Origin: Methylophaga sp. OBS3 | GTDB lineage: Bacteria; Pseudomonadota; Gammaproteobacteria; Nitrosococcales; Methylophagaceae | NCBI RefSeq assembly: GCF_026319325.1 | Contig: NZ_JAPDMU010000002.1 | Location: forward strand, 372,001 to 436,000 | DNA: 64,000 nt | Reading direction: 5' to 3' | Shown here: piece after piece, positions 4,657 through 10,439 of the stretch | Numbering within the stretch: the first letter of the stretch is position 1 | How the letters are laid out: each line of letters begins with the position of its first letter | Translations under genes and position numbers: made by a program | The notes under the pieces: generated by a model | The model's database searches: none | Seen by the model: only the letters and a program-made list of their open reading frames with translations | Told to the model about the DNA's origin: nothing

Positions 4657-5343
4657 TCATGGTTCGTTGGGCATGATTTCCTGCCAATTAAAGGCACGTG
4701 TAATTAATGGTTTATTTTTCTGTGTAATCGTTACGACAAGCTGTGCAGGGGGAGTTTCAGATGGTGAAAACGTCCCTTCAATGACCTGTACAAAGCGTAG
4801 ATTCAATCCATGTTCACCAATAACGTCTGTGTTATCTGGTTTTTCTGTATTAGGTAGTAAACTAACGGCAACATGGCCGGTTAATGGCTCACTAATATTA
4901 TCGCCTTGCGTTAAGACAATCCGGTAGCGAAGATGGTTTGCCTCATTGCCTTCGGCGCGAAGCTGTACTTCCCTGACTTGCAACTCACTGCTGCCACTGC
5001 CTTGTGTGACTGTTTGATAAAACAATAATTCTTTGTTCAGATCAATGATCTTTTGTTGTAACTGCTGAAGCCTTGTTTCCAGTTGATTGGTGGCAACTTG
5101 ATGAATCGCCTCCAACTGCTGTTGGCTGGTTTGTGTTTGGCTAAGCGCCTGAAATTGAGGTCTTATCTCATCGAGCTCTTGTTTCAGTCGGCTATTCTCT
5201 GCCACTAATTCGGCTTGCTGGGCACTGATGTAACGATGGTAATACCACTGAGCCAGACCAGTAATAAAAACAACTAAGACAATCCACATCAGGCACCGAA
5301 AAGGGCGCCGTTGGCGGATTTCATAATCATGCAGCGCGGCCAT
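4657..5343 (-). CDS. DUF6776 family membrane-anchored coiled-coil protein
   Basis: 228 residues of unproven function. One membrane helix at about 15-38 follows a short basic N-terminus. A coiled coil rich in Gln, Leu and Glu runs from about 40 to 105, and a compact, probably periplasmic beta domain ends the protein. Its start codon overlaps the argC stop (TGATG), so it is translationally coupled to argC. The bactofilin gene follows directly, so a role in anchoring or scaffolding together with bactofilin is a reasonable inference from position, nothing more. Similar small anchored proteins sit between argC and erpA in other gammaproteobacteria. Confidence 0.75.
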   Translation of the reverse strand: MAALHDYEIRQRRPFRCLMWIVLVVFITGLAQWYYHRYISAQQAELVAENSRLKQELDEIRPQFQALSQTQTSQQQLEAIHQVATNQLETRLQQLQQKIIDLNKELLFYQTVTQGSGSSELQVREVQLRAEGNEANHLRYRIVLTQGDNISEPLTGHVAVSLLPNTEKPDNTDVIGEHGLNLRFVQVIEGTFSPSETPPAQLVVTITQKNKPLITRAFNWQEIMPNEP

Positions 5344-6371
5344 CAGGGTAATGTCGCGATAGTTTGCAATCCTTGCGTTTCATCAAAGCCAAACATAATG
5401 TTCATGCATTGAATCGCCTGTCCTGAGGCGCCTTTCACTAAATTATCGATTACCGATAACACCACAACGGTATTGCCTCCTTGCGGCTGATGAACCGCCA
5501 AACGACAAGTATTCGCACCACGAACACTACGTGTTTCTGGGTGTGCACCGGCGGGCATGACATCAACAAATGGTTCATTGGCATAATGTTCTTCAAACAA
5601 TGCTTGTAAGTCAGTAGCGCCTTGAAGCTGACCATACAGTGTTGCATGAATACCGCGAATCATTGGTGTGAGATGGGGAATGAACGTAAGGCCAACGGCT
5701 TGGTTAGCCATTTCTGTCAGCGTCTGGCGAATTTCAGGTAAATGGCGATGGCCATTCGCGCCGTATGCTTTAAAGCTTTCACTTGTCTCAGTTAATAACG
5801 TACCAATAGCCGCTTTTCTACCAGCACCACTCACGCCCGATTTCGCATCGGCAATTAATTGTTGTGGATCAATCAAACCTGCTTTAAGTAATGGGTAAAA
5901 GCCCAGTTGAATGGCTGTTGGATAACAACCCGGTACGGCAATTAGCTGTGCTGATTGAATAGCTTCGCGGTTTAATTCTGGCAGGCCATATACTGCTTGT
6001 TCAGCATATTCAGGACAGGTATGTGGGGTGTTGTACCACTGCGCCCACAGATCCGTATCTTTTAGTCTGAAGTCAGCAGATAAATCGATAACGCGAACGC
6101 CGCGTTTTAATAATGAAGGCACACTACTCATGGCAACAGTATGCGGTGTTGCAAAAAACACGACATCACATGCTGCTAAAGCATCTTCATCTGGTTCAGT
6201 AAATGTCAGATCGAGATGGCCGCGCAAGTTAGGAAACATGTCAGCAACGGGCATACCCGCCTCACTACGTGAGGTGATGATTTCAATCTTAACGTCTGGG
6301 TGTGGTGCCAGCAGTCTGAGAAGTTCGACACCGGTGTAACCGGTCCCACCGACGATTGCTACTTTAATCAT
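5343..6371 (-). CDS. argC: N-acetyl-gamma-glutamyl-phosphate reductase
   Basis: Third step of arginine synthesis: NADPH-dependent reduction of N-acetylglutamyl phosphate to the semialdehyde. 342 residues. The nucleotide-binding loop GGTGYTG is at 8-14, and the catalytic cysteine is Cys149 in VPGCYPTA. The C-terminal half holds the dimer and substrate domain. A strong ribosome site (AGGAAGG) precedes the ATG. It heads the argC - DUF6776 - bactofilin - erpA run. No ARG box was recognised in the 77 bases upstream. Confidence 0.96.
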
Positions 6372-6448: not shown

Positions 6449-8551
6449 CTATTTCAATCGTTTTAAAAGCAATGGGTCAACACGAAGCGTCGTATCATCT
6501 CCAGCTGGTTGCTGTTGCCAGTTTTTTAGGGGGGCAGCTTGTGTTTGTGCTTCAACCTGCGCATCTTGCCACTGTATTTGCCAATATTGTTTAGCGGTTT
6601 GAATGAGGTACTGACCTTGTTCAATTGTGGCTTGATTGAAATCGGTAAGGTCGATAATTAAGTCATGGAGACGCAGATTAATTGATTGACCAAAAAAGTT
6701 ACTCGGGCACCAGCAAAGTAAATTTTGAATCGCTTCTTTAGTTGGCTGCCAGCGTAATATCGTGGTTAATACGTCTACGACGGCATTTTCGCCAACATAT
6801 TTGAGGTGATGCCATTGCCCCCAACTACTCAGCAATAAGATATCAATGCTGTTAATAAGGTTTGTCTGTGCCGAGCTAAAACTTAATGGGTCACTCTGAT
6901 TACTGGTCATTTGTAACCCTTGTTGTTGCAGTTGGTCTAAAGGAGCTGGCTGCAAATTGGTTAACAAAATGAGTTGTGTCGCAACCGCAGGTTGTTGCAG
7001 TGCTTCAGCTTGAATCGGCGGAATAGGCTGCGCGACAGTTGAGCGTAACAATTGTTGACTCATATCTAAGATATGTTGACTGGCCAACTCTGGCTTTGGA
7101 TCACTGATACGTAACCAGCTATTGCGTGTTAATAAACGGTTGATGATGGCAAATGCCATCACGCTGACCAAGTCATCATGGCTAAATAGTGCATTTTGCG
7201 GGGCGTTACTGGGGGCTAAATCACTAAGATGCCATCGAGTACTGTTTTCGAGGCGATATAAATTAATCTGTTCTAAACCACCCTCAGGCAAGCCCGGTAA
7301 AGCTAAATCAATGGTGGTATCGGCTGGTGGATTTATCATCAGCGCGAGATATTTGCTGGCGGATTTAAGCTGCGTGGTATCAAGCGATAACTGCTGTGCA
7401 AATTGTTGTGCTTGTTGTAATTGGGCTGACAGCCACCGCCAACGCTCAGCAGGTTGGGTTAATAAGATCCGTATGCCTTGTGTTAAAGGTTGATCTATAT
7501 TTCGGACAAATTGTGCTGACCACTGCCAATGCGAAATCAGATTTTGTATAAAGTTTTGTCGCCAAGGCTGTGTGGGATGAAGCACTTTATTTGATAAACG
7601 CTCATGGCTGAGCCGGTATAACGACTCTCTCGCCCTTAGTAGAGATTTATCATCTTGCCTGCGACTGAGTGCAATGAGTTTGAGATTAGCGGTACAAAGT
7701 GCAGTGTTATCTTTTTCGCCAGCTTCTAAACGCTGCTTCAGCAATAGACTTAAATTATCGATTTCTGGATATAGCTGACATTGCTGAGTCGCAAACAGCA
7801 AATCCAGATCGTGCTGTGGGCCTTGATGAAATGCTAAAAACCAATAGTGCACAAAGTCATCAAGATATTGCTGGGCGCTAACTTCAAACGGAGCGCCAAA
7901 GTCTAAAACACTGGTTTCATTACTTCGCACTTGCGTTCGTAACGTTTCTGCCAAATTGGCATAAGCAGCTTGCTCTTTGCTGCTGATGGACCACCAAAGA
8001 GGCAGGCTTCCGGCCAGTGTTAAGCCATTGGTGTAAAAGTCAGCCAGTTGTTGTTTTATTGCTGGTGATTGCTGAAGGTTGGTTTCACTGACTAACTGGT
8101 AGTCGAGAGTGATGCCCATTTGTGCCGTCCAATTTTGGATCGCTATCAGTTTTTGATTTAGCGCGGCAATCGCCTCTGGCGACAAATGAAATTGATGTAC
8201 AACCCAAATCGTGAAACTGGCTGGCACCGGATACCGTAAGCCATTGAAGTTACTAAGAAGGTAGATGCCTTTTATTGCGTAACGTCGGAGGGCTTTACGA
8301 CGAAACTGAAAATTACGGTCAACGCTAGTGGCAGCACGTAATGTGTCGATTGTTGGTTGATAATCAGCGATACCAACGGGACAATCTTCGTTGGTATAGC
8401 CGGGCAATAACTTGAAACTGCCATGTAATAACAATGGCAACAATTGGAAAAATAATGCTTGGGGGTACGGCGCCATCGCCGTCAATCGATTTAACTGGAC
8501 ACGATTATGTGTTTCGTTAAGTTGAAGCGACTGCGCGCGTTCCCCTAACAT
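6449..8551 (-). CDS. Class I adenylate cyclase homologue lacking the catalytic residues (probable pseudoenzyme)
   Basis: 700 residues, intact, related to the class I (enterobacterial CyaA) adenylate cyclases, which are about 850 residues. The N-terminus keeps the family outline: LLPLLLHG and LLPGY at 37-52, and TIWVVHQ at 114-120 aligned with DIWVCHQ. In the active site, residues 95-120 align without gaps to the E. coli block from GVYTM to VCHQ. There the E. coli Gly-Ser and the Ser-Asp-x-Asp that bind the metal and nucleotide become Ser-Asn (100-101) and Ala-Ser-Phe-Thr (111-114). Both metal-binding aspartates are absent, so cyclase activity is not expected. The start lies two bases after the purH stop, so it is coupled to purH. 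The rest has many Gln and Leu and no membrane segment. It may be a regulatory or scaffold protein; that is inference. The E. coli alignment is from memory. Confidence 0.75.
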   Translation of the reverse strand: MLGERAQSLQLNETHNRVQLNRLTAMAPYPQALFFQLLPLLLHGSFKLLPGYTNEDCPVGIADYQPTIDTLRAATSVDRNFQFRRKALRRYAIKGIYLLSNFNGLRYPVPASFTIWVVHQFHLSPEAIAALNQKLIAIQNWTAQMGITLDYQLVSETNLQQSPAIKQQLADFYTNGLTLAGSLPLWWSISSKEQAAYANLAETLRTQVRSNETSVLDFGAPFEVSAQQYLDDFVHYWFLAFHQGPQHDLDLLFATQQCQLYPEIDNLSLLLKQRLEAGEKDNTALCTANLKLIALSRRQDDKSLLRARESLYRLSHERLSNKVLHPTQPWRQNFIQNLISHWQWSAQFVRNIDQPLTQGIRILLTQPAERWRWLSAQLQQAQQFAQQLSLDTTQLKSASKYLALMINPPADTTIDLALPGLPEGGLEQINLYRLENSTRWHLSDLAPSNAPQNALFSHDDLVSVMAFAIINRLLTRNSWLRISDPKPELASQHILDMSQQLLRSTVAQPIPPIQAEALQQPAVATQLILLTNLQPAPLDQLQQQGLQMTSNQSDPLSFSSAQTNLINSIDILLLSSWGQWHHLKYVGENAVVDVLTTILRWQPTKEAIQNLLCWCPSNFFGQSINLRLHDLIIDLTDFNQATIEQGQYLIQTAKQYWQIQWQDAQVEAQTQAAPLKNWQQQPAGDDTTLRVDPLLLKRLK

Positions 8552-8553
8552 GT

Positions 8554-10119
8554 TTAGTGGCGGAAGTGGCGCATACCAGTGAAGACCATGGCAATACCAT
8601 GTTCATCTGCGGCAGCAATAACCTCATCATCACGCATCGAACCACCCGGTTGGATAACCGCTTTAATGCCAGCTTCTGCAGCGGCATCTAAACCATCACG
8701 GAATGGGAAGAATGCATCCGACGCCATAACCGCACCTGGTACGGTTAAGCCTGCATCTTCGGCTTTAATGCCTGCGATACGACTTGAAACGACACGACTC
8801 ATTTGGCCTGCACCGATACCAACGGTTTGTTGGTCTTTGGCATAAACAATCGCGTTTGATTTCACATATTTCGCAACACGCCATGCAAACAATAAGTCAG
8901 CTAATTGGGCAGCATCTGGTGCTAATTTGGTAACGACTTTCAGCTCTTGTTCCGTGACCAACTGAATATCGCGGTCTTGAACTAACAGGCCGCCAGTGAC
9001 GCGTTTGAAATCAAGGCCACTATTTGCGTTTGCTGGCAAGTCACCACAAATTAACAGGCGAACATTGGCTTTTTTCGCAACGATGTCAGCAACACCTTCT
9101 GCGACGCTTGGCGCGATAATGACTTCAACAAATTGACGATCGATGATGGCTTGAGCTGTTTGTGTATCTAACGGTCTGTTGAATGCGATAATGCCACCAA
9201 ACGCTGAGGTTGGATCTGTTTGGTAAGCCAAATCATAAGCTGTTAACAAATCGTCAGCGCAGGCAACACCACATGGGTTCGCATGTTTCACGATGACACA
9301 AGCTGGTTGCTCGGTGAATGCTTTGACACATTCCAGTGCAGCATCAGTGTCGGCGATATTGTTATAAGACAGTTCTTTACCTTGTAATTGAACTGCAGCA
9401 CCAATTGAGCCTGATTCAGGGGTAGCTTCACTGTAAAACGCTGCGTTTTGGTGAGGGTTTTCACCGTAGCGCATGTCCTGTTTCTTATGGAATTGGCTGT
9501 TAAATGTGCGAGGGAACGCATTTTTGCTACCATCTTCGGCGATTGTGCCAAGATAGTTAGCAATCATGCCGTCATAATGTGCTGTATGTTCAAAGGTCTT
9601 TAATGCCAGATCAAAACGTGTCGCATCATCAGTGCCACCGTTATTTTTGATTTGATCTACTACGCGCGCATAGTCTGCTGGGTCAATCAGTACCGTAACA
9701 TCAGCATGATTTTTAGCAGCAGCACGTAACATGGTTGGACCACCGATATCGATGTTTTCAATTGCATCAGGCAATGAACAGTCAGGTCGCGCAACGGTCG
9801 CTTCAAAAGGATATAAGTTTACGACAACCAAATCGATTGGCTTGATGTCATGTTCGGTCATGATGGCATCATCAGTACCACGGCGACCTAATAAACCACC
9901 GTGAATTTTCGGATGCAGGGTTTTAATACGACCCGCCATCATTTCTGGAAAACCAGTGTGGTCAGAGACTTCAATAACGGGTAAACCCGCATCAGCCAAT
10001 AGTTTAGCGGTACCACCGGTAGATAATAATTCTACGTTAAGTGCGTTTAATTGTTCTGCCAGCGCGACAATACCAGTTTTGTCAGAAACACTTAGCAGAG
10101 CACGTTTAATTGAATTCAT
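8554..10119 (-). CDS. purH: Bifunctional AICAR formyltransferase / IMP cyclohydrolase
   Basis: Last two steps of purine synthesis: formylation of AICAR with 10-formyl-THF, then ring closure to IMP. 521 residues from the chosen start, close to the usual 520-530. The reading frame is open 102 bases further upstream, but the alignment start [16 protein letters not shown] is the family N-terminus, so that is used. The N-terminal cyclohydrolase domain has STGGTAKLL and [12 protein letters not shown]. The C-terminal transformylase domain has VKHANPCG. It is preceded by fis (29 bases) and followed by the adenylate cyclase homologue (2 bases). Confidence 0.96.
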
Positions 10120-10148
10120 GCAGTTTTTCCAGAGAGCGTAAAAACGGC

Positions 10149-10439
10149 TTACAAGCCGTATTGTTTGAGTTTTTTGCGAAGGGTGCCACGGTTGATGCCG
10201 AGGATTTCGGCAGCACGGCATTGATTGCCATGCGTATGTTCCAATGTGGCTTTTAGTAATGGGACTTCCACCTCGGTCATCAACATATTGTAGAGATTGG
10301 CGGTTGGCGTGCCATCAAGTTGTTCGAAATAGGTTTTGAGCGCATGTTCGACACACTCCTTCAGGGGCGCGTGACGAGTTTCTGGGCTGACGCCCAGATC
10401 GACGCAGCCTTCCATTGAGGAGTCGAGTGCTTTGTTCAT
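10149..10439 (-). CDS. fis: DNA-binding protein Fis
   Basis: Nucleoid-associated protein that bends DNA and adjusts stable RNA promoters and recombination. 96 residues, the usual length. The C-terminal helix-turn-helix (about 72-93) reads [20 protein letters not shown], the canonical Fis recognition segment. The start overlaps the dusB stop by four bases (ATGA), which reproduces the conserved dusB-fis operon. Control in E. coli is growth-phase dependent; no equivalent promoter could be seen here because the gene lies inside a longer operon. Confidence 0.96.

Follow-up and report, generated by a model that had tools for sequence, protein, structure and literature searches.

Genomic locus and family assignment

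The window analyzed here is a stretch of 64,000 nucleotides from Methylophaga sp. OBS3, in which the ORF under study lies on the minus strand between purH and argC. The genes of this locus are:

5343-6371, minus strand: argC, 77 bp past the stop codon of the cyclase homologue, and the same neighbour in relatives wherever the flank is available
6449-8551, minus strand: class I adenylate cyclase homologue (pseudo-cyclase) of 700 aa, with PF12633 and PF01295 over cut-off
8554-10119, minus strand: purH, with likely start MNSIKRAL (TIGR00355, 786 bits)
10149-10439, minus strand: fis-like gene upstream of purH, assigned by reading the sequence by eye

The purH frame (8554-10221) stays open for 102 bases 5' of the likely start at 10119, where it runs into the end of the fis-like gene, which is read in a different frame.

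The 6449-8551 product matches PF12633 (88 bits, E-value 7e-25, residues 12-187) and PF01295 (126 bits, E-value 2e-36), both above the curated cut-offs of 27 bits, and profile-profile comparison by hhalign revealed collinear homology to E. coli CyaA with probability 100 across 875 columns. The class I scaffold claimed in the original prediction is therefore real, and the product is a member of the class I adenylate cyclase family of proteins. Matches to the corresponding NCBIfam models were also obtained, but far under their equivalog cut-offs. Sequence searches of the PDB with the window protein and E. coli CyaA as queries returned zero relatives. Named homologues were found in Methylophaga (M. 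muralis, M. lonarensis, M. thiooxydans, M. sulfidovorans and M. aminisulfidivorans) and in Methylophagaceae MAGs. The search for a second, intact cyaA that had been proposed was carried out: the ORF is the sole class I homologue in the 2.3 Mb genome of the window, and no class III cyclase was detected there.

The gene had also been described as coupled to purH and, through it, to the supply of IMP and AMP. Two bases indeed separate the purH stop from the pseudo-cyclase ATG, but the metabolic link was not supported, because the order purH-cya'-argC is common to Methylophagaceae copies that all fall in one clade, and three genomes have dropped the gene and kept purH-argC. The arrangement is thus inherited gene order, and purH adjacency was rejected as evidence of function.

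Catalytic site of the window copy

The active-site blocks of E. coli CyaA and the window protein (GIYLLSNFNGLRYPVPASFTIWVVHQ) align with zero gaps in MAFFT and, independently, in hhalign (probability 100), as the original prediction had stated. The relevant segments of the window copy are:

8240-8254, minus strand: residues 100-104, SNFNG, at the place of the GS signature (E. coli G102-S103; MAFFT and hhalign alignments)
8204-8221, minus strand: residues 111-116, ASFTIW, at the place of S113-D114-L-D116-I-W118 (MAFFT and hhalign alignments)
8024-8041, minus strand: residues 171-176, DFYTNG, at the place of E. coli E185-FY-R188-TA, with E185 and R188 lost
7694-7708, minus strand: residues 282-286, NTALC, with C286 at the D300 place in the alignment

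Relative to E. coli CyaA, the window copy carries G102S, S103N, S113A, D114S and D116T, and W118 is retained; both alignments reproduce the predicted replacement of Gly-Ser by Ser-Asn and of Ser-Asp-Leu-Asp by Ala-Ser-Phe-Thr. S103, S113, D114, D116 and W118 are reportedly essential in E. coli CyaA, according to work by Linder in 2008. The corresponding enzyme motif GS...SDxDxW, invariant across 21 intact class I homologues, is absent from the window copy, which has N, A, S, T and W at these five positions. The loop preceding the E185-FY-R188-TA place is shorter in all Methylophagaceae copies.

A GS/GG signature together with three acidic residues that bind metal defines the nucleotidyltransferase fold (PMC11646218). 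By its conservation, we infer that D300 is a candidate third acid: this place holds D or E in 29 of 29 other sampled Methylophagaceae copies and Cys (C286) in the window copy. The polymerase-beta-like nucleotidyltransferase signature is likewise absent from the window copy, in which D114, D116 and D300 have no acidic counterpart and G102 is replaced by Ser. The predicted loss of the catalytic residues, D114 and D116 included, thus holds, and no other alignment supplied an acidic replacement.

Catalytic loss across Methylophagaceae

No Methylophagaceae copy whose site is readable retains the GS...SD motif; the usual sequence there is LINPxG..YPxxxxF[DE]LWLV. A loss private to the window genome, or a sequencing error, could be ruled out, since the loss is family-wide. 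Of the polar residues that never vary among 21 intact class I cyclases, 14 (S103, S113, D114, E185, R188, E242, K253, K260, K264, E269, R321, K332, D414 and K432) proved to be lost in most of 29 Methylophagaceae copies. All of them sit in the catalytic half, and about ten further charged residues are gone beyond the catalytic motif. R19, P58, G60, K136, Y187, G195, W200, W201, K286 and W464 are invariant in the Methylophagaceae copies as well. Compared with E. coli CyaA, the family shares full-length homology, the N-terminal catalytic and C-terminal regulatory halves and the conserved scaffold residues, but lacks GS / SDxD and those additional charged residues.

The G102 place is occupied by N in 25 of the 29 copies, and D114 is kept in one; the D116 place holds D or E in 23. 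In copies such as L010 and L042 the D114 and D116 places each still hold D, although G102, S103 and S113 are gone, so that erosion continued after the ancestral loss. The Methylophagaceae copies form one clade separate from the intact cyclases (SH-aLRT 100). Across 276 evenly sampled Gammaproteobacteria genomes, N-domain scores were bimodal, with 80 hits at 213-269 bits and the Methylophagaceae at 90-105 bits; the remaining hits were one other family at 83 bits and one weak match at 20 bits.

The rest of the cAMP pathway

The cAMP phosphodiesterase CpdA was found in none of the 35 Methylophagaceae genomes, in which only weak matches of up to 41 bits were obtained; it scored 189-266 bits in all seven genomes sampled that carry an intact class I cyclase. 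Class III cyclases are missing from 34 of the 35 genomes. The single exception, G029, encodes a class III cyclase (L155) of 737 aa with a long sensor-like N-terminal part, about 10 kb from the CRP gene.

Thirty of the 35 genomes carry a CRP orthologue. Its pocket retains G71, E72, R82 and R123, but Ser83, which contacts the cAMP phosphate, has given way in 28 of the 30 to M, Q, T, G, K or I, most often to Met; Ser is found in G030 and G034. Outside Methylophagaceae, all six CRPs sampled from genomes that encode an intact class I cyclase retain Ser83, and it is replaced in both sampled genomes that have CRP but no cyclase. The orthologue in the window genome (L034, 1138-1851, minus strand; NF008732, 287 bits) has Met in place of Ser83 and retains the DNA-recognition helix; possibly it needs no cAMP or responds to a different ligand.

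Judged from gene content and pocket residues, the usual cAMP signalling is gone in Methylophagaceae. This conclusion draws on the absence of CpdA, the absence of class III cyclases and the change at CRP Ser83, all of them independent of the cyclase alignment. CRP was also considered as an obligate partner of the pseudo-cyclase; this idea is unsupported, as each is found without the other.

A precedent for altered CRP behaviour exists in Xanthomonas, in which the pocket residue changed in Clp is the equivalent of CRP Ser83. Clp, a CRP orthologue, needs no nucleotide to bind DNA and is released from it on binding c-di-GMP (PMC5449483). The Methylophagaceae proteins resemble it as CRP orthologues with a presumably changed ligand behaviour, and differ from it in that Ser83 is mostly Met and a dead cyclase is still retained.

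Selection, truncation and loss

Across eleven pairs of intact copies, maximum-likelihood dN/dS ranged from 0.10 to 0.21, and every pair rejected neutrality (LR 67-483; the L028/L029 pair, which gave a negative LR, was left out of the set). Comparison values were about 0.02-0.08 for purH and 0.03-0.08 for argC, so that the pseudo-cyclase exceeds purH several-fold in dN/dS. The N-terminal half is under constraint equal to that on the rest of the protein. Since no close relative of the window copy was available for a pairwise test, a five-taxon codon model was used, which gave dN/dS of 0.21 on the window branch against a background of 0.18; fixing the window branch at 1 costs 11.2 log units (2 dlnL 22.5), and neutrality is rejected. 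Long branches lie near silent-site saturation, so the exact dN/dS values are rough, while the rejection of neutrality is clear. The proposal that the gene is under selection was thus supported. At the level of sequence, it combines the three marks of a pseudoenzyme, namely homology to an enzyme, loss of the catalytic residues and retention by selection.

The claim that the window copy is intact was contradicted by the alignment with the M. muralis copy:

6449-6466, minus strand: early C-terminus of the pseudo-cyclase; relatives run about 170 residues on

Its last residue pairs with residue 728 of the 898-residue M. muralis protein, and relatives are about 876-900 aa long compared with 700 aa in the window. 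The absence of about 170 C-terminal residues that its relatives have also sets the window copy apart from E. coli CyaA.

These data bear on the alternative that the gene is a relict in slow decay, useless once cAMP was dropped, with a frame that survives by chance or through purH/argC coupling. Several features fit such decay. The gene has been cleanly deleted in three genomes (G009, G025 and G026), in which argC directly follows purH at a distance of about 106-184 bp, and the frame is interrupted in three others (G022, G028 and G030). Besides being shortened, the window copy is changed at 4 of the 36 columns that do not vary among 49 other copies, a set that includes near-duplicates and makes the leave-one-out controls lenient. 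Protein identity is merely 25-39 %, compared with 80-86 % for purH. However, 30 of the 35 Methylophagaceae genomes still have a pseudo-cyclase match, mostly in uninterrupted frames of about 880 codons, neutrality is rejected in all intact pairs and on the window branch, and dN/dS is higher (0.26-0.31) in pairs that include an interrupted copy. We consequently regard the relict explanation as improbable.

An enzyme with changed chemistry, in which other catalytic residues on the old fold carry out a new reaction, seems very unlikely. The acids at the D116 place in most copies and at the D300 place in all those sampled could be read in its favour, as could 14 lineage-specific conserved positions in the Methylophagaceae copies. 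Nevertheless, these newly conserved positions are scattered and mainly hydrophobic or in the regulatory half, and no new polar cluster at the former active site was found among them; the nucleotidyltransferase glycine and the acid at D114 have disappeared, and T and C occupy the D116 and D300 places of the window copy. That the protein is a class I adenylate cyclase that has diverged but remains active, as its whole-length homology at probability 100 might invite one to think, is highly improbable in view of the loss of S103, S113, D114, E185, R188, K260, K264, K332 and D414 in nearly all copies, the loss of CpdA and the altered CRP pocket.

Other class I pseudo-cyclases

Degenerate class I homologues were also detected outside Methylophagaceae:

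L101, 2565-5273 and 5251-6024, minus strand: cyclase homologue of family f123 and its double-receiver neighbour; likewise at L172, L173 and L175
L068, 4845-7448, plus strand: class I homologue of a Methylohalobius MAG, with IGTAAGFTHVDASELQVW in place of GS...SDxDxW

The f123 family of Gammaproteobacteria comprises class I homologues of 869-928 aa, and the Methylohalobius copy, which reads IGTAAG...SELQVW, represents a third degenerate case. Both resemble the Methylophagaceae copies in having lost GS / SDxD within full-length frames, and both lie on tree branches separate from the Methylophagaceae clade, f123 as a second clade of pseudo-cyclases. They differ from it in other respects: f123 has a shortened catalytic loop and, in four of seven genomes, a double-receiver protein encoded immediately upstream, overlapping or abutting, whereas the Methylohalobius gene lies downstream of argH and a PAS-like ORF. 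At the f123 loci, a transporter-like ORF precedes the double-receiver gene. A second class I homologue in G319 (L176, 1116-3722, minus strand; 869 aa) is highly divergent, about 18-20 % identical to f123 copies. The double-receiver neighbours of f123, together with the Methylohalobius case, suggest a tendency for class I pseudo-cyclases to persist as signalling proteins.

Proposed role and significance

We consider it likely that the gene is a clade-wide class I pseudo-cyclase retained for a non-catalytic role, most probably one in binding or regulation, with cAMP signalling dismantled. As the sequences show, metal-binding and phosphate-binding residues disappeared from the class I cyclase in an ancestor of Methylophagaceae, and cAMP signalling came apart through loss of the cAMP phosphodiesterase and a change in the cAMP contact of CRP. 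Purifying selection, which is evident from the codon analyses, has kept the scaffold, presumably for a non-catalytic role. Such a role would be non-essential, as the gene has been deleted in some lineages, and the three clean losses and three interrupted copies suggest that it is weak or conditional. The window copy itself is an unusually diverged, C-terminally shortened member on which selection still acted during most of its separate history.

One form that this role may take, which we put forward tentatively, is that of a regulatory protein whose former catalytic domain serves as a binding module and whose former regulatory half serves as an input or docking surface, with the old input relayed by protein contact in place of cAMP. 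Nucleotide sensing, which had been suggested for this protein, appears weakened, since nearly all copies have lost the conserved R188, K260, K264 and K332, a pattern that speaks against an ancestral mode of binding. A broader and somewhat doubtful reading is that non-catalytic signalling by protein contact arose when cAMP was given up, and did so separately in f123 with its double-receiver partner, so that a recurrent kind of regulator would be involved.

Dead nucleotide-cyclase and diguanylate-cyclase domains occur in other pseudoenzymes, in which the fold is kept, the catalytic residues are lost and purifying selection persists. To our knowledge, those known are class III or GGDEF/EAL proteins. 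The Methylophagaceae copies share their pattern of fold and selection and differ in being class I. The original statement that class I pseudo-cyclases had not been described stands within the open-access literature searched, in which we found neither such a description nor an account of cAMP in Methylophaga; the main texts of the Methylophaga expression papers searched do not mention the gene.

Since class I adenylate cyclase models match these genes, automatic annotation likely credits Methylophagaceae, a family of marine methanol users, with a cAMP synthesis that they very probably lack. The combination of a selected dead cyclase, a missing phosphodiesterase and an altered CRP pocket makes the family a natural experiment on how a global second-messenger system comes apart and which of its proteins survive, and the roles of cyclases besides catalysis become a directly testable question in culturable Methylophaga. 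If the broader reading is true, class I pseudo-cyclases would be a recurrent and unrecognised kind of bacterial regulator.
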